14,934 nt of DNA, from contig JAFPLG010000028.1 of assembly GCA_017402895.1 (NCBI GenBank), forward strand, positions 1 through 14,934, in the 5' to 3' direction. Positions 3,229 through 14,809 of this stretch are shown here, in pieces. Positions within the stretch are counted from its first letter, which is position 1, and the number at the start of each line of letters is the position of its first letter. The DNA is from Paludibacteraceae bacterium (lineage in GTDB: Bacteria > Bacteroidota > Bacteroidia > Bacteroidales > Paludibacteraceae). The translations under genes were made by a program, and so were the position numbers. Under the pieces are notes generated by a model. The model did no database searches. It was not told the origin of the DNA and saw only the letters and a list, made by a program, of their open reading frames with translations.

Positions 3229-4121
3229 CTCTCTTTCTGGTTGGCCGGGTGATAAGCAAGAATAGCACGTCTGAGGTCCTGGACTTCGACATGGGTATAT
3301 ATCTCGGTAGTTGTGATGTCTTCATGACCGAGCAATTGCTGTATGATGCGCAGGTCTGCTCCATTCTGAAGCATATGGGTAGCAAACGAATGACGCAAAG
3401 TGTGCGGAGAGATATTCTTCCGTATACCTGCCGCTTGGCATAGCCGCTTGATAATCGTGAAAACCATAACGCGCGTCAAGGGAGCACCCCTACGATTCAA
3501 AAACGCATAGTCTTCCGAACCGGGAGATATAGGCCACAACGCTCTATCTTGGAGCCAATACTGAAACCACTTTTCCGCTACAGGCGAGATAGGTACCAGT
3601 CGTTGTTTGGAGCCCTTACCCTCGATGAGCATATAGTGTTCCGAACGATAAATATTGCTCAGTTTCAGAGCCGTCAGTTCGCTCACGCGCAGACCACTAC
3701 CATAGAGCATTTCGATGATGGCGCGATTTCGATGGCCTTCGTGTGAACTAAGATCAATTGCACCAACGAGTTGGTCTATCTCCTCAACAGAGAGCACTTC
3801 GGGCAGATGTACTTCCTTACGCGGTCCCTCAAGCAACTCGGAAGGATCTTGGTCAATATAGTTATGATAGAGCAAAAAGCGATAGAACGAACGAACTCCG
3901 GACAAGATACGTGCCTGGGAACGTGCATTCGTGTCCGTCGAGAAGGTATCTCGAACGAAATCATGCAATTGGTCAAGCGTGGCGTGTACGGGATCGACAG
4001 ACTGTCGAATGAAATAGGAGAAGAGCTTGTCTATATCGCGTTCGTATGCCTGAACGGTGTTTTCCGACAATCCCCGTTCCATCCTTAGATACATCCGATA
4101 TGTCTTCCGGATATCACTCAT
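3225..4121 (-). CDS. xerD: Site-specific tyrosine recombinase XerD
   Basis: A protein of 298 residues, the normal length for XerC/XerD, which resolve chromosome dimers at dif near the division septum. Residues about 4-90 form the SAM-like core-binding domain (YLRMERGLSENTVQAYERDI). The catalytic domain shows all expected residues: Arg145 (SGLRVSEL), Lys172 (GKGSKQR), His240 and Arg243 (HTLRHSFATH), His266 (LLGHEDITTT) and nucleophile Tyr275 (EIYTH). The start at ATG 4119-4121 is chosen because the frame upstream overlaps the preceding gene and has no recombinase similarity. This start overlaps the lipoprotein stop by 8 bp (ATGAGTGA). The stop TGA 3225-3227 overlaps the next ATG. XerD rather than XerC is inferred from overall pattern; XerC remains possible. 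Confidence 0.9.
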   Translation of the reverse strand: MSDIRKTYRMYLRMERGLSENTVQAYERDIDKLFSYFIRQSVDPVHATLDQLHDFVRDTFSTDTNARSQARILSGVRSFYRFLLYHNYIDQDPSELLEGPRKEVHLPEVLSVEEIDQLVGAIDLSSHEGHRNRAIIEMLYGSGLRVSELTALKLSNIYRSEHYMLIEGKGSKQRLVPISPVAEKWFQYWLQDRALWPISPGSEDYAFLNRRGAPLTRVMVFTIIKRLCQAAGIRKNISPHTLRHSFATHMLQNGADLRIIQQLLGHEDITTTEIYTHVEVQDLRRAILAYHPANQKER

Positions 4122-4650
4122 CCTGTTTCGTTGAGAGAGGTCCTTGAAAATGCGCATCATACGTCTCGCGCCCGTGATAAAGCGTAAAACGAATATCCAC
4201 GATTCCATCGGCCGTATCGCGCACTTCCATCCTGCCGGAATCCATCAGCGTGATACTCGTCAGAGCACCATCGGCGACCTGTAGTAGATACGTACCCGTT
4301 GGCAGGCCTTCATAGTTCTTGCCGGGCAAGAAGCTGAATTGTTCACCCGTAGTTCCCGTTGTGTAACTGCCCGGGCTCAGCAGGGAATCCGTCACAAAGA
4401 TATCCGATAGATACAAGTTGTAGCCCGAACCCCGCATACGATATGCAGAATCCAGTTCCAGACCGGCAGAATAGAGGTCGAGCGACAGAACGGAAGCCTG
4501 TATGGAATCGTAGCACTGGCCATGAGCCTCCACATAGGCTTTAGCATATTCCTTGGGCGCCACAGGTTGCGGAGAGGGATTATACGGATTGCAAGACGCG
4601 ACCAGTAAACCCCAAACAGTATTCAATATAAGAAGGTAACCTTTTTTCAC
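4114..4650 (-). CDS. Small lipoprotein of unknown function, GTG start
   Basis: A protein of 178 residues with a lipoprotein signal peptide: KK, a hydrophobic stretch, and lipobox LVASC with Cys20 as the lipidated residue. The mature part is about 158 residues. It looks beta-rich and contains the segments YNLYLSD, LPTGTYLLQVADG and VDIRFTLYHGRETYDAHFQGPL, which resembles the alternating strand pattern of small Bacteroidota lipoproteins; I do not recognise a named family. No acidic surface-export signal follows the cysteine (NPYNPS). The start is GTG 4648-4650, in the same frame as the upstream permease and one codon after its TGA; no better start exists before the signal peptide. It lies in the rbfA-permease-xerD cluster. 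Confidence 0.75.
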   Translation of the reverse strand: MKKGYLLILNTVWGLLVASCNPYNPSPQPVAPKEYAKAYVEAHGQCYDSIQASVLSLDLYSAGLELDSAYRMRGSGYNLYLSDIFVTDSLLSPGSYTTGTTGEQFSFLPGKNYEGLPTGTYLLQVADGALTSITLMDSGRMEVRDTADGIVDIRFTLYHGRETYDAHFQGPLSTKQDE

Positions 4651-4673
4651 TTTTCACCTTTCAACTTTCAATT
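4646..4673. repeat. Heptamer array at permease/lipoprotein junction (unit TTCAATT family)
   Basis: Four contiguous 7-mers. On the minus strand they read AATTGAA, AGTTGAA, AGGTGAA, AAGTGAA. The array encodes the last residues of the permease (LKVER), supplies its TGA stop (4654-4656), and supplies the GTG start of the lipoprotein (4648-4650). Confidence 0.75.
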
Positions 4674-5877
4674 TATAGGAGGGATACCACGCTGCCACAA
4701 ATCCAAGCAACAACACAACAGCCATCACCAGCAGCACGTCACCCCACTGGAGCAGAACGGGATAGGCAGACAGGATATAGTCGTCACCTGATCCCAACTT
4801 GATAAATCCGAAATGTTGCTGGAGCAGACATAGTGTCACACCTAAGACAACACCCACTAACGCACCCAGTATACTGATCAGCCATCCCTCCACGAGGAAA
4901 ATGCGGCGGATCTGGCCGGGCGTAGCACCCAGGTTGCTAAGTATGCGAATATCCTCGGTTTTATCGATGATAAGCATCGTGAGCGATGATATGATATTAA
5001 AACTGGCTACGATCAAGATAAACACCATCAAAAGAATGGTCAGTAGCTTCTCTACGCCAAACATCCGAAAGAAATCCTCCTGCTGTTCGTAGCGATTGAG
5101 TACGCGATAGTCGGAGCCCAGAAGTTGCTGTATCTCACGCTGCGTACGATCAATCGCCAATGGCGTCTTCAGACTCAGATTGAGCGAAGTAACAGTTAGG
5201 CTGTCATAATCATAGAGCCGGCGCACCAATGGCAAGGAAACCAGCATAACATGATCGTCATACTGAATCTGATTGACAGCAAATATACCGGAAATATAGG
5301 TATGTTCCCGACGCAGGCTCTTGTCAGGGCGCATCATATTGATACGCCCGATACGTTTAGGGGCGAAAATATAGAGAGGTTCTACGAAGTGGGCGCCCAC
5401 GCCCATAGTACTAGCCAACCCACGGCCCATAACCGTTCGCTCAAACCCACCTTCGTCCTGCACACAAAAGACACCGTCCGTAATAATCGAGTCAATATGC
5501 GTTGCACGGGCAAACACCGAGTCAACCCCCATCAATTGGGCGGGCGTCTGCTTGTCGTTGTAGCGCACCATAGCCGTATTCTCGACCACTTCGGCCAGAC
5601 AATCGATCTCAGAATAACTGCGAAGTTGCTGTATCTCCTTTGCATCGGTCCGAAAGGTCTTCCCGCTTGCGGCCACCACCTGTAGTTGAGGGTCAAACTG
5701 CGAGAACATATGCTCTATTACGCTACCGAAGCCGTTCATCACCGAGAGCACACATATCATAGCAGCAGCTACCACGGCTACCGCAGCAGCCGAGACACCC
5801 GATACGATATTGATCGCATTTACTCGTTTGCGCGAGAACAAGTAGCGCCAGGCGATATGCAACTCCAGTTTTGCCAT
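4654..5877 (-). CDS. FtsX/LolC-LolE-type ABC transporter permease
   Basis: A protein of 407 residues with the MacB/LolE topology: TM1 about 21-47, a large periplasmic domain about 50-270, then TM2 about 277-303, TM3 about 332-354 and TM4 about 378-398. The opening (LELHIAWRYLFSRKRVNAINIVSGVS) and the cytoplasmic coupling segment (DKTEDIRILSNLGATPGQIRRIFLVEG, residues 305-331) are characteristic of LolC/E lipoprotein-release permeases. Release of outer-membrane lipoproteins is therefore a reasonable guess, but no LolD ATPase is in the window, so the substrate is inferred. The gene starts 5 bp after rbfA ends. The C-terminal residues LKVER are encoded by the 7-bp array and may not be ancestral. 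Confidence 0.85.
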   Translation of the reverse strand: MAKLELHIAWRYLFSRKRVNAINIVSGVSAAAVAVVAAAMICVLSVMNGFGSVIEHMFSQFDPQLQVVAASGKTFRTDAKEIQQLRSYSEIDCLAEVVENTAMVRYNDKQTPAQLMGVDSVFARATHIDSIITDGVFCVQDEGGFERTVMGRGLASTMGVGAHFVEPLYIFAPKRIGRINMMRPDKSLRREHTYISGIFAVNQIQYDDHVMLVSLPLVRRLYDYDSLTVTSLNLSLKTPLAIDRTQREIQQLLGSDYRVLNRYEQQEDFFRMFGVEKLLTILLMVFILIVASFNIISSLTMLIIDKTEDIRILSNLGATPGQIRRIFLVEGWLISILGALVGVVLGVTLCLLQQHFGFIKLGSGDDYILSAYPVLLQWGDVLLVMAVVLLLGFVAAWYPSYKLKVER

Positions 5878-8660: not shown

Positions 8661-8665
8661 AAATT

Positions 8666-8693
8666 TTCAATTTTCAATTATCAATTTTCAATT
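8666..8693. repeat. Heptamer array between pgk and the DUF3127 gene
   Basis: Four contiguous 7-mers; on the minus strand they read AATTGAA, AATTGAT, AATTGAA, AATTGAA. It fills almost the whole spacer and ends 5 bp before the DUF3127 start codon. Each unit holds TGA, so the array closes all three frames after pgk. Confidence 0.85.
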
Positions 8694-8699
8694 CGCCGC

Positions 8700-9947
8700 T
8701 TAGCCCTTAATAGCTGCTACGCCCGGCAGAACCTTACCCTCGATAGCCTCGAGCAAAGCACCACCACCGGTAGAGATATACGATACCTTATCAGCCAGAC
8801 CGAACTTGTTGACACATGCTACCGAGTCACCACCACCGATGAGCGAGAAAGCGCCATTAGCTGTTGCTTCGGCAATGGCATTACCGATAGCACGGCTACC
8901 GTCGCAGAAGTTATCGAACTCGAACACACCTGCAGGACCGTTCCACAGAATCGTCTTTGCACCGCGGATAGCCTCAGCGAACTTCTTCTGAGCCTCAGGA
9001 CCTGCATCCAAGCCTTCCCAACCGGCCGGAATAGCGTTGGCAGGACAAACCTGCTGCTTTGCATCGTTGCTGAAACTGTCTGCACAGATAGCATCTGGAG
9101 CCAGCACGAGTTCTACACCATTCTTCTTAGCCAGTTCCTCAACGCCCAGAGCAACGTCGAGTTTGTCGAGCTCTACGATCGAGTTACCAATCTCGCCGCC
9201 GTGTGCCTTAGCAAACGTATAGGTCATACCACCGCATAGGATGAGTTTATCCACCTTGCCCAGCAGGTTCTCGATGATACCAATCTTCGAGCTTACCTTC
9301 GAGCCACCCATGATAGCCACAAACGGACGCTTGATATCGCCCAGCACTGCATCAACTGCAGCCACCTCTTTCTCCATAAGGAAACCGAGCATCTTGTTGT
9401 CTGCATCAAAATAGTCGGCAATAACAGCCGTCGAAGCATGCTTGCGGTGTGCGGTCCCGAAGGCATCCATCACATAGCAGTCAGCATACGATGCAAGTAC
9501 CTTAGCAAACTCTTTCTGACGGGTCTTCATCTCCTTCTTAGCCTCCTCGTAAGCCGGATCTTCCTTGTCGATACCTACGGGCTTACCTTCCTCTTCGGGA
9601 TAGAAGCGGAGGTTCTCGAGCATCAGCACCTCGCCGGGTTTCAGAGTAGCTGCCTTATCTTGCGCCTTAGCACAATCCTCTGCAAACTGAACAGGACGAC
9701 CGAGAGCTGCACTAACAGCGTCAACAATCTGGCTCAGGCTGAACTTGGCCTGTACCTTACCCTTCGGCTTACCCATATGGCTCATGATGATAAGCGCACC
9801 ACCCTCGTCCAGGATGTGCTTGAGCGTAGGCAGTGCACCGCGGATACGGGTATCATCGGTGATCTTACCATTCTCATCGAGTGGCACATTAAAGTCCACA
9901 CGTACGATTGCCTTCTTGCCGGCAAACTTAAAATCTTTAATCGTCAT
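8700..9947 (-). CDS. pgk: Phosphoglycerate kinase
   Basis: A protein of 415 residues, within the usual size. It catalyses 1,3-bisphosphoglycerate + ADP to 3-phosphoglycerate + ATP in glycolysis. Visible motifs: substrate loop [13 protein letters not shown] (residues 15-27), SHMGKPKG (about 56-63), hinge region [22 protein letters not shown], and the nucleotide-binding [13 protein letters not shown] followed by STGGGALLE near the C-terminus. Start ATG 9945-9947. The gene lies 30 bp downstream of the DUF6242 lipoprotein in the same direction, with no convincing separate promoter between them. Confidence 0.97.
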
Positions 9948-9977: not shown

Positions 9978-11318
9978 TTACCAATCAATTGAGTTCAGTC
10001 GACCTCGATAGACATCCGAATAGGTCGTCGTCTTGTCCTGCCCGCCAAAGAGGTAGATATAGTTGTCACGCACGATAGCGGTTTGTTTCCGACGTGCCTG
10101 GTACACCTCGGGCAGTTGGTTCTTAGCCGTATCTGCCTGGGTCCAGTTGAGTCCCTCGTCATCAGAGATGAGTATGTCGCGACCAAAATACGTCATATCC
10201 TGGTCCACGCCGCCAAAGAGCATCAACTGACCGTTGTACCAGATAACAGATATACCCGTCAGCGTCGTAAAATGCGGACGATCGATCGAGAACTCACTGA
10301 GGCGATAACCTTTGTTCTCGCGAATCTGCTCGGAGTACTCCAGATTCCAACGGGTATTCAGACTCCGTCCGTTCTCGGCATAGCCACCGATAATCATAGC
10401 CCGAGCACGTTCACTCGCACTCTGGAACTGCACGGCCGCAAAATCGCTCACCGGGAAGTCTCCGTCCGGTCGAATACCAGTCAACACTAGACTGTTTCCC
10501 TCCAGATAGGCCAGTTCCAATCCTCCATTATCCACCAGCGCCCACACACGACCGTTCCAGCACATGAGCATCGTCTTCATCACAAGGCTCATCGGCTGCG
10601 CAGTCCAGGTCGTAGCATCAGTCGAAGTATACATCGTAGTACCATCAGCATAATAGAGCGTTGTGCCGTCCGAGATGATCTGACGAACACGTGCGCCGGC
10701 AGGCAGTCCGCTCGGAGCACTCAGTACCGACCACGCTGCGCCGTCGGTCGACGAATAGGCTGTGTTCTGGAAGCCGTTATTGGCAATCATCACAAATTGT
10801 CCACCAAGTTCCACCACCGTCTGTTCACTCTCATCGGCGGGATAAATCTGCGGCGTCAGCTGGTTCCAGACGAACAGGTCGGGGTCGGCCTGATGCACCG
10901 TAGGACGTATCTCATAGACTTTGGTAGTCGTACCGTCGGACGAACGCAGGGTCAGGTAGATAGGTTGGTGCGCAAAATTAAGCGTATCATAACCCGTCAG
11001 CACAAGGGTCGTGTCGGGGGTCTGAAGTTGCGCCATACCCACGGCCACTTGGAACACAAAACGCGGCACCACCCGCTCGAGTGAGGTGCCATATAGAATC
11101 GAGTCTTTGTTATACACCAGTCCGGTGTCCAGACGTTCCTCCACGGTAAACACCGCAGCAGCCAGTCCGGGCATGGAGTCATTGCTAGCAAATGAGAAAC
11201 CGGTCAACTTAGCTACCGACGAGGTAGTTACGGTACTCGTGCTGGAACTGCTACACCCGGCTATTCCCATAGCCAGAAGCGCCATCACAATAGGCAGTAT
11301 ATGCTTCGTTATCTTCAT
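9978..11318 (-). CDS. DUF6242-type lipoprotein with C-terminal kelch/BNR-like repeats
   Basis: A protein of 446 residues from ATG 11316-11318. This start gives a clean lipoprotein signal: MKITK, a hydrophobic run, and GIAGC with Cys22 lipidated. The longer upstream frame adds 33 residues unlike a signal peptide. Residues about 30-150 form a beta-rich N-terminal domain (SFASNDSMPG, DSILYGTSLERVVPRF). The rest shows beta-propeller-like repeats: YSSTDGAAWSVL, YTSTDATTWTA, LMLFGGVDQ, ISDDEGLNWTQ and YLFGGQDKTTTYSDVY, mixing BNR Asp-box-like and kelch GG elements. This matches my recollection of the DUF6242 family; function unknown. The tail after Cys (SSSSTST) is not acidic, so surface export is not indicated. 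Confidence 0.8.
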   Translation of the reverse strand: MKITKHILPIVMALLAMGIAGCSSSSTSTVTTSSVAKLTGFSFASNDSMPGLAAAVFTVEERLDTGLVYNKDSILYGTSLERVVPRFVFQVAVGMAQLQTPDTTLVLTGYDTLNFAHQPIYLTLRSSDGTTTKVYEIRPTVHQADPDLFVWNQLTPQIYPADESEQTVVELGGQFVMIANNGFQNTAYSSTDGAAWSVLSAPSGLPAGARVRQIISDGTTLYYADGTTMYTSTDATTWTAQPMSLVMKTMLMCWNGRVWALVDNGGLELAYLEGNSLVLTGIRPDGDFPVSDFAAVQFQSASERARAMIIGGYAENGRSLNTRWNLEYSEQIRENKGYRLSEFSIDRPHFTTLTGISVIWYNGQLMLFGGVDQDMTYFGRDILISDDEGLNWTQADTAKNQLPEVYQARRKQTAIVRDNYIYLFGGQDKTTTYSDVYRGRLNSIDW

Positions 11319-11349
11319 TTTTGTCAAGAAAACAGTATTTTTTAACAAA

Positions 11350-11377
11350 TTTTCAACGTTCAATTTTCTATTTCCAA
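11350..11377. repeat. Heptamer array in the divergent DUF6242 / cyclo-ligase intergenic region
   Basis: Four consecutive 7-mers on the + strand: TTTTCAA, CGTTCAA, TTTTCTA, TTTCCAA. It is the same TTTTCAA family as at 8666 and 4646. It covers the expected -33 position (11364-11367) of the rightward promoter whose -7 box is at 11388. Confidence 0.6.
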
Positions 11378-11395
11378 TTATTTTTTGTACCTTTG
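11364..11395 (+). promoter_or_regulatory. Promoter of the cyclo-ligase gene
   Basis: The -7 box TACCTTTG (11388-11395) is a perfect TAnnTTTG. At 20-nt spacing the -33 box is TTTT (11364-11367). The start codon at 11416 leaves a leader of about 14 nt. Confidence 0.72.
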
Positions 11396-11415
11396 CAGCC
11401 AAATTTTGTAGCATC

Positions 11416-12021
11416 ATGTTATTCGAAGGCCAAATTCATGATTTCCGTGCATGGCTCCCGTGGAACCGTGAGAAGAAGGAAAAACGTGCCTTGCGTGCCA
11501 TTATTGAGCAGCGTCGTCGCGTGCTGAGCAAGGAACAAGTCGCTAAGGACTCGGCTGCTATTCTTGAGCAGATTGAGCAGTCTCCCCGTTTCCAGTCCGC
11601 TAAGGTGGTACTGCTCTACTATCCCGTCCACAACGAGGTAGACCTGCGTCCGCTGCTGGAGAAGTACTACCACGAGAAGACGATGCTTCTACCTGTCACC
11701 CATCGCCGCTATATCGAGGTACGTCCGTACGACGGCGAGGATATGATGCGTCGTGGTCATTTCGGCATTCCCGAACCCCAGACCGAGCGTTATCGCGGAC
11801 GTATCGACATGATCTTCGTGCCGGGTGTGGCCTTCGACCACCATCGCAATCGTATCGGTCGCGGAGGAGGTTACTACGATAAGTTCCTTCGTCACCATAA
11901 TAGTTCTTTCCAAGTAGGCGTCTGCTATGATTTCCAACTCAAGAAAACCGAGATACCTCACAGCTGGCTGGACCACAAAGTAGATCGTGTCATCACGCCT
12001 ACTCGCAAGATCAGCCGCTAA
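11416..12021 (+). CDS. 5-formyltetrahydrofolate cyclo-ligase family protein (5,10-methenyl-THF synthetase)
   Basis: A protein of 201 residues. The family converts 5-formyl-THF to 5,10-methenyl-THF using ATP. Key segments: KEKRALRAIIEQRRRVLS (helix 1, about 21-38), VVLLYYPVHNEVDLRPLL (64-81), LLPV (91-94), HFGIPEP (115-121) and the signature FVPGVAFDHHRNRIGRGGGYYDKFL (134-158). Start ATG 11416 is supported by the promoter immediately upstream; the open frame further left runs antisense to the DUF6242 gene's 5' region. About 20 N-terminal residues (MLFEGQIHDFRAWLPW and following) precede the usual family start. It converges on the 218-residue gene to its right. Confidence 0.88.
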   Translation: MLFEGQIHDFRAWLPWNREKKEKRALRAIIEQRRRVLSKEQVAKDSAAILEQIEQSPRFQSAKVVLLYYPVHNEVDLRPLLEKYYHEKTMLLPVTHRRYIEVRPYDGEDMMRRGHFGIPEPQTERYRGRIDMIFVPGVAFDHHRNRIGRGGGYYDKFLRHHNSSFQVGVCYDFQLKKTEIPHSWLDHKVDRVITPTRKISR

Positions 12022-12027
12022 CCCGCC

Positions 12028-12126
12028 TTACCAGAGCGTCTGCTCGCGGGCACGTTGGCGTTTCAGTTCCAAGTCGGTCAGTGCCGTCAGTTCCTTCTCT
12101 CCTTTACGGTAGTAGTAGATCAGTCA
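12028..12126 (-). other. Coding-like continuation of the 218-residue gene beyond an in-frame TGA
   Basis: Directly after the TGA at 12124-12126 the same frame continues for 31 sense codons to TAA 12028-12030. The translation starts LIYYYRKGEKEL and goes on TALTDLELKRQRAREQ, ending TLW. It has the charged, helix-like composition and codon choice of the gene body. It ends 6 bp from the cyclo-ligase stop, which would make the gap as tight as others here. Changing TGA to GGA (Gly) is a single base. It may be a premature stop, a leaky stop or a sequencing error. Confidence 0.6.
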
Positions 12127-12780
12127 GTACTCCTTGCAGCGACACAGCCGCTCGTAGGGCAGTAGTTCGCGGAAGTGTTCCTCCACTTCGTTCCAGATTT
12201 GCAGAATCAATTCATCGGCTTCCTTGCGGAATCCCTCCAAGTCTCCCTGTACGCGAATCGTGTTCTGCTTATGGAGCGTATGGTTCACCTGATGCTCCTT
12301 AAATATGTCATAGTACACTTGCACCTTCGTGATCGGCGGGTTGTATATAGCAAATCCACCCATCGAGGTGCGCTTTTTTTCTCCATCAATGATTCGTTGT
12401 CCCCACTCCAGGATGTCGGCTTCGGTCGTTAGATCCGGCACCACACGATTCTCTAGATCCAGACCATACAGCGCTATCTGCTCCTTCTTGATCTCTCCGC
12501 GGATAATGGCCAGGTTCAGCACCTGGATAAAATGTGAGATATACATGCGGGCATTCTGCACGATATGGCGGTATTTCTTATTCGCATTAACCTTCGAGCG
12601 GAAATTGTCCTGGTACTGGGTCACCATAGTCTCAAAATGCATCAGACAGCGTTGCGCTTCGTTGAGCGTTCGATACGAGAGTGCCTGATTGGTATAATCG
12701 GCATCTGCGGCACGTTTTACGGCCGTCTGCAGGGCATACAATCGCGCCTGGTCCGTATTGGGTAAACGACGATAAGGCAT
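12124..12780 (-). CDS. Conserved-looking hypothetical protein, possibly C-terminally truncated
   Basis: A protein of 218 residues that I do not assign to a named family. It is soluble, with no signal peptide or membrane segment, mostly helical and charged. Distinct segments are LPNTDQARLYALQTAV (6-21), ARMYISHFIQVLNLAIIRGEI (77-97), VPDLTTEADILEWGQRIIDGE (113-133) and ADELILQIWNEVEEHF (about 187-202). It ends YERLCRCKEY at TGA 12124-12126, after which the frame continues (see the entry at 12028-12126). The start ATG 12778-12780 follows the polyprenyl synthase stop by 23 bp containing a 7-bp array. It is the third gene of the ddl operon. Confidence 0.75.
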   Translation of the reverse strand: MPYRRLPNTDQARLYALQTAVKRAADADYTNQALSYRTLNEAQRCLMHFETMVTQYQDNFRSKVNANKKYRHIVQNARMYISHFIQVLNLAIIRGEIKKEQIALYGLDLENRVVPDLTTEADILEWGQRIIDGEKKRTSMGGFAIYNPPITKVQVYYDIFKEHQVNHTLHKQNTIRVQGDLEGFRKEADELILQIWNEVEEHFRELLPYERLCRCKEY

Positions 12781-12789
12781 CTTAATATT

Positions 12790-12818
12790 TACGATTTAAT
12801 CATTTACGATTTACGATT
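12790..12818. repeat. Heptamer array at the polyprenyl synthase / hypothetical gene junction (unit TACGATT)
   Basis: The + strand holds TACGATT (12790-12796), one extra base, AATCATT (12798-12804), then TACGATT (12805-12811) and TACGATT (12812-12818). On the minus strand the unit is AATCGTA. It encodes the final residues of the polyprenyl synthase (NRKS) and its TAA stop at 12804-12806, then fills most of the spacer. Confidence 0.75.
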
Positions 12819-13748
12819 TTCTAATTTATTAGCAAGCTGGCGCAAGGCATTAGTCGCTTCGTTTTGCGGCAGGGTGTCCATTAGTCGCAGCGCTTCGCGA
12901 GTGTGACGCTCGATAGCCTCTTCTGCCATAGCACGAACACCTATCTCGTTATATAGCGCAGTCACGCCAGCTATCTTTTCCTGGCCGGGCAACTGACTCA
13001 ACCAGTGATGCAAGCGCTCGGTCTGCGACACATTGGCATGGTCTCGTGCCGAGAGCAGCAGATAGGTCTTCTTGTTGCAGCATATATCACCACCAATAGC
13101 TTTCCCAAAAGTGGTCGGATTGCCATATACGTCCAGCAGGTCGTCCTGGATCTGGAAAGCCAGTCCCAGATGGATGCCGCAGTCGTATAGCGCTTGTTGA
13201 GCTTCCTCCGATGCATTGGCAATATAGGCACCCGTGCGCAACGCGTTGGCCAACAGCACCGAGGTCTTCAGGCGAATCATCTCGATATACTCATCCAACC
13301 GCACATCCTCACGTTGCTCAAAATCCACGTCATACTGCTGCCCCTCGCATATCTCTGTAGCCATCTCGTTGAACCACCGAAGCGTCTGCGCCAACTTGTC
13401 TTCTCGCACCTGCGAGAGCAAGCGGTAGGCCTCGATCAGCATCTGGTCGCCCGAGAGGATAGCGGTATTCTCGTTCCAGCGCACATGCACCGTCTCGCGT
13501 CCGCGACGCACCTCGGCATGGTCCATCACATCATCGTGCAGCAACGTGAAGTTATGAAACACCTCCAACGCCAGCGCTGCCGGCAGCACGTCTTCATCCC
13601 TTCCACCGAACATCCGGCAAGCCGTCAGAGCCAACTGCGGGCGCAGACGTTTGCCTCCCGCGCTCAGGGTATAGCCTATCGGTTCGTACAGTCCCTTCGG
13701 CTCCTTGCTCCAATCCAGCGATTCTATGGCCTGGTTGATATCGATCAT
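12804..13748 (-). CDS. Polyprenyl (short-chain isoprenyl) diphosphate synthase
   Basis: A protein of 314 residues of the trans-isoprenyl diphosphate synthase family, which condenses isopentenyl diphosphate onto allylic diphosphates. Motifs: GGKRLRP (31-37), first Asp-rich motif HDDVMDHAEVRRGRETVH (Asp72, 73, 76), Lys161-Thr162, second Asp-rich motif QDDLLDVYG (Asp202, 203, 206) and NKKTYLL (225-231). The first motif is DDxxD without the two-residue insertion, and Phe67 lies five residues before it. By the known chain-length rules this favours a short product (C15-C20), but the product is not certain. The last residues and stop come from a 7-bp array. The gene lies 38 bp after ddl. Confidence 0.92.
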   Translation of the reverse strand: MIDINQAIESLDWSKEPKGLYEPIGYTLSAGGKRLRPQLALTACRMFGGRDEDVLPAALALEVFHNFTLLHDDVMDHAEVRRGRETVHVRWNENTAILSGDQMLIEAYRLLSQVREDKLAQTLRWFNEMATEICEGQQYDVDFEQREDVRLDEYIEMIRLKTSVLLANALRTGAYIANASEEAQQALYDCGIHLGLAFQIQDDLLDVYGNPTTFGKAIGGDICCNKKTYLLLSARDHANVSQTERLHHWLSQLPGQEKIAGVTALYNEIGVRAMAEEAIERHTREALRLMDTLPQNEATNALRQLANKLENRKS

Positions 13749-13753
13749 TTTTG

Positions 13754-13795
13754 TCTTTATTCCTTATTCCTTCAGCGAAGCGGTCCTTACTCCTT
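13754..13795. repeat. Heptamer-phased array at the ddl / polyprenyl synthase junction (unit TCCTTAT)
   Basis: Six successive 7-bp frames on the minus strand: AAGGAGT, AAGGACC, GCTTCGC, TGAAGGA, ATAAGGA, ATAAAGA. The unit family is (N)AAGGA(N), with one unrelated heptamer in the middle. On the + strand TTATTCC occurs twice in direct tandem (13757-13763, 13764-13770). The first unit encodes the end of Ddl (KE) and starts its TAA stop (13787-13789). Confidence 0.6.
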
Positions 13796-14809
13796 TGAGA
13801 ATTTATTCTCAATTATATCCGTCATCACTTCCTTAATATCCAGCCCGGCAGCGCGTACCTGTTGCGGGATGAAACTCGTCGGCGTCATACCCGGCGTGGT
13901 ATTAACCTCCAGAAGGTTGATATGGGGCATGTCACCTACCCATTTCCCATTTTCCAGTTTCCATTCGCCGTTCGCCGTGATGATCCAATCCACGCGGATG
14001 ATACCGTTGGCACCAATGATGTCGTATAGTCGCATGGTCTCTGCCTGAATCTTGTCGCGTACCTCATCGGGAATACGGGCCGGAGTGATCTCGTCCACCT
14101 CGCCTTTGTACTTTGCGTCGTAGTCAAAGAACTCATTGTGGGTCACCACTTCTGTAACAGGGAAGGCAACGGCTTTGTTGCGGGTCTTATACACGCCGCA
14201 GGTCACTTCCGTACCTTTCATATACGACTCGCAGATCACCTCATCGCCCTCATGGAAAGCACGCTCAATAGCGGGATAAATCTCCTCGACCGTCTTCACT
14301 TTGGTGCAACCGAAAGAGCTGCCGCCTACGTTTGATTTGATGAAACACGGCAGACCCAGCGTCTCAGCAATCTTCGGTGCGTTGGGCAATTTCTGTCCCG
14401 CACGCAGAATCATGCTATTGGCGATATGAAAACCGAAATACGACAAGTAGTGGTTGCAAGCATACTTGTTGAACGTCAACGCTGCAGCCAGCACGTCACA
14501 ACAGCTGTATGGTATGCCCATCATGTCCAGATAGCCTTGGAGCAATCCGTTCTCACCCGGCGTACCGTGAATCGTGATATACGCGAAATCAAACGTGTAG
14601 CGCACGCCCTCGCGCGTAAAAGAAAAGTCATTCTTATCTATCGGACAACCATCCTCGGTATGCCAATCCTTACCACGCAGCACCACAATCGTGGTGTTGT
14701 ACCGTTCCGGGTCGATAAAGCTCTTCAATCCGGCCGCCGAACGCAGACTCACCTCATGTTCCGAGCTGTCTCCGCCGGCAATAATTGCTACGTTTTTTCT
14801 ATCTTGCAT
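13787..14809 (-). CDS. ddl: D-alanine--D-alanine ligase
   Basis: A protein of 340 residues from ATG 14807-14809. It joins two D-Ala with ATP for peptidoglycan precursors in the cytoplasm. Motifs: GGDSSEHEVSL (12-22), HGTPGENGLLQG (81-92), ATP-grasp lysine Lys158 (FIKSNVGGSSFG), FFDYDAKY (227-234), Mg2+ ligands Asp274 (RVDW), Glu301 and Asn303 (LLEVNTTPGMT). The start is chosen because the protein begins MQDRKNVAIIAGG and a promoter lies 25 bp upstream; 27 further in-frame codons run into that promoter. Between Asp274 and Glu301 there are 27 positions versus 13 in E. coli DdlB, and the extra segment NGEWKLENGKWVGD coincides with a 7-bp repeat. First gene of a three-gene operon. Confidence 0.95.
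   Translation of the reverse strand: MQDRKNVAIIAGGDSSEHEVSLRSAAGLKSFIDPERYNTTIVVLRGKDWHTEDGCPIDKNDFSFTREGVRYTFDFAYITIHGTPGENGLLQGYLDMMGIPYSCCDVLAAALTFNKYACNHYLSYFGFHIANSMILRAGQKLPNAPKIAETLGLPCFIKSNVGGSSFGCTKVKTVEEIYPAIERAFHEGDEVICESYMKGTEVTCGVYKTRNKAVAFPVTEVVTHNEFFDYDAKYKGEVDEITPARIPDEVRDKIQAETMRLYDIIGANGIIRVDWIITANGEWKLENGKWVGDMPHINLLEVNTTPGMTPTSFIPQQVRAAGLDIKEVMTDIIENKFSKE
13941..13975. repeat. In-gene heptamer array inside ddl (unit CATTTTC family)
   Basis: Five contiguous 7-mers on the + strand: CATTTCC, CATTTTC, CAGTTTC, CATTCGC, CGTTCGC. On the minus strand the unit resembles GAAAATG and has no stop in any frame. Three units equal seven codons, giving the protein repeat NGEWKLE / NGKWVGD at residues 280-293 of Ddl. 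Confidence 0.75.

Follow-up and report, generated by a model that had tools for sequence, protein, structure and literature searches.

Tandem arrays of 7-bp units are dispersed through the genomes of the genus studied here, and in one window, a stretch of 14,934 nucleotides from a Paludibacteraceae bacterium, such an array lies in frame within a loop of D-alanine-D-alanine ligase (Ddl). We read the ddl array as an old, partly decayed copy of a dispersed AATGGAN word, held in frame in a length-tolerant loop, and give this reading a probability of about 0.6. Arrays of this kind recur at many positions, stay in frame inside genes, draw on a vocabulary shared with non-coding DNA, carry a genome-specific variant letter and are patchily distributed among Ddl homologs. 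In these uncultured gut bacteria, repeat DNA has been taken into conserved proteins many times over.

A heptamer array in the ddl gene

The window is contig 126 in an incomplete genome bin (1.25 Mb, 59% complete). Both Ddl domains, N-terminal (PF01820) and C-terminal (PF07478), score above the Pfam cutoff in its ddl product, and an Rfam scan of the window gave no match. Inside the gene, five degenerate units of AATGGAN type follow one another on the minus strand (Table 1); in the best register, read along the coding strand from 13972 to 13938, they are AACGGCG AATGGAA ACTGGAA AATGGGA AATGGGT, encoding N280-GEWKLENGKW and the first base or bases of V291. At lag 7, 17 of 21 positions match in the best 21-position stretch, and the remaining lags tested (4–6 and 8–15) reach 13 matches at most. 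This score was attained by none of 5000 codon-order shuffles and by 0.94% of 5000 synonymous-codon permutations; the latter figure indicates that the repeat exists at the level of the DNA and not merely of the peptide. Tandem 7-bp units beyond chance are thus found in ddl, as they are genus-wide. The array is real and lies where the first-pass annotation had placed it, so that the observation made there is confirmed; its interpretation is partly supported, as set out below. Because the five units are only 0.67 alike (mean pairwise identity), this copy appears old or decayed.

The array sits in a loop, here called loop C, that comes after RVDWII and between D274 and E301. These two residues and N303, which we take to be the Mg2+ ligands, are invariant in an alignment of 36 Ddl sequences, and the 27-residue spacing from D274 to E301 that the annotation had noted is correct. 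The equivalents of D274 and E301 in E. coli DdlB are presumably Asp257 and Glu270, 13 residues apart. In all three of the PDB Ddl alignments shown (7u56, 3q1k and 3i12; 37 sequences matched), a 14-residue stretch is missing at loop C. An excess of 14 residues had been claimed; this figure stands against relatives with a 22-residue empty loop, but becomes 15 against those with 21 residues. Equating it with exactly six heptamers fails, since the periodic part of the insert covers about five units (35 nt) and its GDMP tail is non-periodic. Six units had also been held to explain why the insert is tolerated, by keeping the frame. This argument does not hold, because any total divisible by three keeps the frame, and length differences in multiples of 7 residues are uncommon among the filled loops.

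A predicted structure of Ddl, computed from 36 sequences (mean pLDDT 87, pTM 0.87), agrees with the proposal that the insert occupies a beta-hairpin turn, with modelled strands 270–278 and 296–303 flanking it. Between these two catalytic strands the model shows the array folding as a small additional hairpin (strands 284–286 and 289–291) around an N287-G288 turn; average pLDDT over residues 281–290 is 75. The predicted hairpin presumably resembles the ENGKW hairpins of tryptophan zippers.

Table 1. Features of the window, with positions numbered from its first nucleotide
Feature	Position	Strand	Evidence
ddl, D-alanine-D-alanine ligase, 340 aa	13787..14809	-	Pfam PF07478, PF01820; PDB matches
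Heptamer array, five AATGGAN-type units, ddl loop C, NGEWKLENGKW	13938..13972	-	Periodicity and register
Insert E282-P295, 14 residues lacking in solved Ddl; holds most of the array and GDMP	13925..13966	-	PDB alignments, predicted hairpin
Ddl loop A, residues about 50-55, near 51; no insert in the window, a second hotspot for inserts among relatives	14645..14662	-	
Ddl loop B, residues about 138-143, near 139; short form in the window, a third hotspot for inserts among relatives	14381..14398	-	
TTATTCC array, 2.3 copies, just upstream of polyprenyl synthetase start (13748)	13757..13772	.	
ATTTACG array between genes 12124-12780 and 12804-13748, running into the end of the second	12787..12819	.	
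AATTTTC array inside ORF 9978-11417 when the first start codon is taken as its start	11348..11379	.	
AATTTTC array in the gap separating pgk (8700-9947) from the DUF3127 gene, 2 bp before the latter's start (8660)	8662..8693	.	
TTTTCAC/TTTCAAC arrays where the FtsX-like permease gene (4654-5877) meets the next gene (4114-4650)	4644..4671	.	

Ddl loops in relatives

Ddl was found in 112 of 121 genomes of the genus, and the 110 loci fetched (G065 and G072 were left out), together with 80 loci from named records, gave 157 distinct proteins. The records are titled Paludibacteraceae bacterium, uncultured Bacteroidales bacterium and the like, many of them from rumen and gut. Loops were counted from an ORF search, an initial regular expression having read 80 of the 110. 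Loop C is short in 108 of the 157 proteins and long in 49, with fillers of many kinds, which bears out the claim that the segment is an insertion. The annotation had predicted that close relatives would lack the segment or vary in it by multiples of 7 residues. Its first part stood, as loop C is empty in 39 and filled in 81 of the 120 nearest homologs listed; multiples of 7 are not the rule, accounting for 5 of the 81 filled loops against a 21-residue reference or 23 against a 22-residue one. Conservation of the same segment in distant Bacteroidota would have spoken against an expansion, and distant Bacteroidales have a short loop C: the short form is present in 24 of 26 members of the distant set (L165–L190), L175 being longer and not periodic and L185 not read there.

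Heptamers are only one kind of filler, because 35 of the 49 long forms miss the lag-7 threshold of at least 16 of 21 matches that the other 14 reach. AATGGAN words occupy loop C in the window, L002, L004 and L034, GGTTACN words in L007, L009, L013, L028 and L031, and ACAAAGN/GTACAAA words in L010, L022 and L025; a palindromic PLPEG element is found there in L026 and L121, and a non-repeat GMRNTEDYVDPVED type in some other relatives. These types are scattered patchily over a tree of conserved Ddl columns. Lag-7 runs are also present in loop A (six distinct proteins) and loop B (four), and AATGGAN-type arrays are seen in loops A, B and C, each in different species. A 36-residue NG class keeps a constant length with a changing unit, and most of its members retain a GDMP-type tail. 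Within this class, the L002 and L004 arrays differ at 4 of 35 positions, every one at unit position 7, and those of L004 and L034 are identical. P0026, with five NGQ-type heptads, exceeds the 36-residue class by 21 residues (3 x 7).

The PLPEG palindromes, GC-rich, of the CCCTCCCTGAAGGGAAGGG type and read in frame as PLPEGKG, lie in loop A of L025, L038 and L045 as well as in loop C of L026 and L121, and a few similar palindromes occur elsewhere in the genomes at 0–3 per stretch. A non-periodic loop-C insert, GMRNTED(Y/F)(V/I)DPVxD, is common to one clade (L037, L042–L046 and L058).

Period-7 arrays across the genus

In 536 kb of near-relative DNA, period-7 tandem repeats number 82, against 20 for the runner-up, period 11, and one shuffle of this DNA contained none. 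Array density ranges from 61 to 270 per Mb across stretches of seven genomes; more distant sets are poorer, at 73 (mid) and 43 (far) per Mb. The vocabulary is restricted, 292 arrays comprising 103 unit types where 292 random genomic 7-mers comprise 249. AAT is present in 59 of the 103 distinct units against 42 expected, and other trends are weaker; one motif common to all units was considered and rejected on these grounds. We also rejected a general lag-7 mutational smear, as substitutions outside the arrays match the base at +7 or -7 no more often than bases at adjacent lags (0.500 and 0.501 for identities of 78–85%). Periods 11 and 22 are in excess in the near relatives as well, in intergenic DNA.

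Ninety-nine of the 292 arrays lie in ORFs with a homolog elsewhere, part of them on the basis of a single homolog, and 193 lie outside. The cyclic unit contains a stop on the coding strand in 14 of the 99, compared with 62 of 99 on the opposite strand. Coding and non-coding arrays use overlapping words: 29 of the 52 distinct coding units also occur outside ORFs, where 7.0 are expected and 300 shuffles gave a maximum of 13. This supports the earlier suggestion that the ddl array is of the kind seen at gene ends.

Among 824 ORFs with homologs, lag-7 runs are present in 26 of 209 insert regions (same-ORF controls, 3.9), and other lags yield 0–2 except for lag 14, with 19. The mid set has such runs in 2 of 49 insert regions (lag 8: 5) and the far set in 0 of 15. 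Of 43 interior arrays in 39 ORFs, each with at least 5 homologs, 56% coincide with an indel in half or more of the homologs, versus 10% of random positions in the same ORFs. Array-bearing genes encode an FtsX-like permease (near residue 240), a metallophosphatase, RecO, the exonuclease VII large subunit, a SufB/D family protein, a polyprenyl synthetase and a DUF3127 protein, and the word at one site differs from species to species. The FtsX-like permease breaks the insert pattern: lag-7 runs of at least 16 occur in 9 of 24 sequences, with lengths within one residue of the rest. Its word AAATCTC encodes an ISNLKSQ heptad with I and L three apart, which, judged from the sequence, would fit a helix. 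Separately, an AAAGGTG array combined with GGACATATAAGG and a TTTCAAT array close by is seen more than once, both inside a single genome and in different ones (at 11388 and 12858 of the G015 stretch and 33725 of the G102 stretch).

Two dispersed words and their genome-specific spelling

The words found in Ddl are widely dispersed in part of the genus. AATGGANAATGGANAATGGANAATGG is present in 18 of 121 genomes (reversed control, 5), with up to 44 matches per genome, and four tandem copies of GGTTACN in 24 of 121 (reversed control, 3), with up to 68. Forty-one of the 60 AATGGAN/GGTTACN loci fetched are interior to long open frames, that is, frames of at least 150 aa with at least 25 aa on both sides of the array; when overlapping matches are merged, this becomes 37 of 54 distinct sites, one of which is Ddl. 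Pfam matches were obtained for 19 of the 20 interior ORFs scanned (L329 had none), representing 18 gene types: S66 LD-carboxypeptidase, Mfd, SufS-like aminotransferase, IleRS-like synthetase, KsgA, AroB, RecQ, LuxR-type regulator, endonuclease/phosphatase, UvrA-like, Mur ligase, APH-like kinase, leucine-rich repeat protein, MurF-alanine racemase, Dxs, RluD-like synthase, DUF1015 (twice) and M24 peptidase. The array falls within the matched domain in 8 of the 20 and in linkers or ends in the rest. Aligned relatives have AATGGAN or a GAATGGC-type filler in one loop of the SufS-like gene, an 8-bp repeat in place of the word in the KsgA loop, and nothing at the array loop of the endonuclease/phosphatase. 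In the L316 endonuclease/phosphatase gene, 7-bp words that drift from GGTTAGN to GGTTACN are inserted in a row where a relative has none.

Among the matches listed, the variable letter of AATGGAN is concordant within genomes (mean 0.75 versus 0.39 under permutation, 0 of 2000 permutations reaching it), being G throughout in G114 and A throughout in G102, and mixed in G035 and G078. Since one word with one letter variant recurs at unlinked loci of a genome, expansion purely in place, as the first-pass annotation had it, is doubtful. The dispersed words also coincide with the Ddl fillers. All five genomes with a clean GGTTAC loop in Ddl have GGTTACN elsewhere, against 24 of 121 overall (P=2e-4), or 5 of 7 when two degenerate GGTTAC loops are counted; for AATGGAN, 6 of 9 Ddl carriers have the word elsewhere, against 18 of 121 (P=3e-4). 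Both P values overstate independence, because related genomes share both words and Ddl alleles. Exact AATGGAN x4 was not found in the window's own genome (59% complete), and G079 and G119, with AATGGAN in Ddl, gave no dispersed exact copies.

In other families of the phylum, AATGGAN is present in 14 of 296 genomes, and 6 of the 20 loci fetched are interior to long open frames, versus 41 of 60 in the genus. One of these families (f18; L281–L290 and others) has AATGGAT arrays, some longer than 100 bp, whose word has a stop on that strand.

Possible origins of the arrays

We envision that arrays are laid down widely over the genome in this genus and would persist where the DNA is free (gene ends) or the protein is free (surface loops and linkers). 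A coding array would need a word with no stop on the coding strand and an insert total that is a multiple of three. Words may be copied between genome sites, for example by template switching or conversion between arrays, and units may be homogenised within a genome; the copies would then be lengthened or shortened by slippage and retained where selection permits. Filled loops probably also move between species through ordinary recombination. The peptide could be near-neutral, with a 7-nt word giving a 7-residue repeat able to fold locally, here as an NG-turn hairpin. That an active process copies 7-bp words from array to array, homogenises the dialect of each genome and so writes new loops into housekeeping enzymes over and over, its machinery setting the 7-nt length, is a possibility that we hold tentatively and well below even odds. 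Local spread of a unit is weak: pairs sharing a unit within 2 kb are in excess in G003 (7 vs 1.7 permuted, p=0.003) and G102 (4 vs 1.2, p=0.031), but not in G015, G054, G002 or G043.

The main alternative is in-place slippage that prefers 7 nt, in which arrays grew from local chance duplications and composition together with slippage favours certain words. Slippage has been put forward as the cause of the bacterial heptanucleotide excess (Mrazek 2007, cited in the relevant parts of PMC4679880 and PMC4692102). In line with this, array indels between L133 and L134 measure 7, 7, 7, 7, 21 and 4 among those listed, P0026 is longer by 21 residues, and AAT is enriched (59 of 103 units vs 42). At identities of at least 80%, however, indels in multiples of 7 are no commoner at arrays (16 of 128) than elsewhere (19 of 138), probably in part because filled sites are often compared with empty ones, and substitutions outside arrays have no lag-7 bias. 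Two words recur in 18 gene types besides Ddl, and slippage alone is insufficient because the AATGGAN letter is specific to the genome across unlinked loci. We consider slippage as the whole explanation doubtful, though a reading to be reckoned with.

A single functional hairpin, inherited or recombined, whose DNA is periodic as a side effect of its repetitive peptide, would account for the constant length and mostly retained GDMP-type tail of the 36-residue NG class and for the identical arrays of L004 and L034. The DNA periodicity is, however, reached by only 0.94% of synonymous permutations, loop C elsewhere holds unrelated words (GGTTACN, ACAAAGN), the PLPEG palindrome or nothing, and AATGGAN and GGTTACN words are found in many unrelated proteins, which makes this origin improbable. 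Carriage by a small mobile element with conserved ends (MITE or RPE-like) is largely contradicted, and we regard it as very improbable. The arrays are dispersed and in frame in conserved genes, as described for the Rickettsia RPE in the cited part of PMC2229807, and the PLPEG palindrome occupies Ddl loops A and C; against this, there are more than 100 different words, and of 151 same-unit pairs within genomes just 3 have flanks at least 0.7 identical (none of 202 different-unit pairs), so that no vehicle is visible and one with fixed ends was rejected. Assembly artefact has a negligible chance of explaining the arrays: nearly all genomes are MAGs, but Ddl loci with arrays are spread over many independently titled projects, with homologs in several sources, and their reading frames stay open.

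Relation to known repeat systems

Cyanobacterial heptamers occur in rnpB and in the tRNA-Leu intron. The arrays described here resemble the LSSRs of Mrazek, the cyanobacterial STRR, the GGGAATC repeats of Xanthomonas and Nostoc and the TAACTGA repeats of Beggiatoaceae in being dispersed tandem 7-bp units. Those systems, as the cited portions of their accounts present them, use one or few words and are mainly intergenic, whereas here more than 100 words, genome-specific variants and in-frame enzyme loops are involved. Bacterial heptanucleotide repeats are described in these portions as tandem 7-bp units of several copies, dispersed and mostly near ORF ends, and heptamers as the most abundant repeat class in most genomes (PMC4679880, PMC4692102). 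In Geobacter metallireducens, four tandem GGGACCG-type heptamers are reported in the cited section at 49 intergenic and intragenic places (PMC2700814), a single family with a proposed regulatory role, in contrast to the many words and in-frame loop insertions seen here.

Rickettsia RPE are fused in frame in 19 reading frames, and a guanylate kinase product is still active, according to the cited part of PMC2229807. Like RPE, the present repeats are found between genes and also in frame inside conserved protein genes. RPE are described there as palindromes of 105–146 bp with terminal inverted repeats; the arrays here are bare 7-bp repeats, and, as their flanks are not shared, they show no sign of belonging to a conserved unit of roughly 100 bp or longer that has ends of its own. 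Dispersed protein-coding tandem repeats (PARCEL), in the cited part of PMC2996958, have a 25-residue amphipathic motif and lie in ORFs of unassigned function; like our arrays they are dispersed and protein-coding, but the unit here is 7 bp or 7 residues. We found no account of in-frame heptamer arrays in housekeeping-gene loops among the open-licence papers that our literature searches listed. Heptamer repeats and protein-coding repeats are each known, and their combination here looks new.

The genus offers a dense natural experiment, in which one word can be traced through intergenic, 5' and coding settings and through empty and filled loops in many genes and species. Why bacterial repeats favour 7 bp is now testable, because genome-specific words at unlinked loci point beyond simple slippage. 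If copying between arrays is real, it would steadily turn non-coding repeats into fresh coding sequence. Some caution is also called for, as loops of essential enzymes in these uncultured bacteria may pass for adaptation while being repeat DNA.

Arrays between and beside genes

Arrays in gaps lie within 12 bp of a called start in 64% of 33 cases, versus 30% by random placement, and near stops in 43% of 35, versus 30%; these proportions are approximate, because all ORF starts were called mechanically. The start-adjacent arrays recall the TAACTGA repeats of Beggiatoaceae. The true start of ORF 9978-11417 may lie downstream of its AATTTTC array. Four other arrays of the window (8662-8693, 12787-12819, 13757-13772 and 4644-4671) have differing words and lie directly before start codons or across gene junctions.
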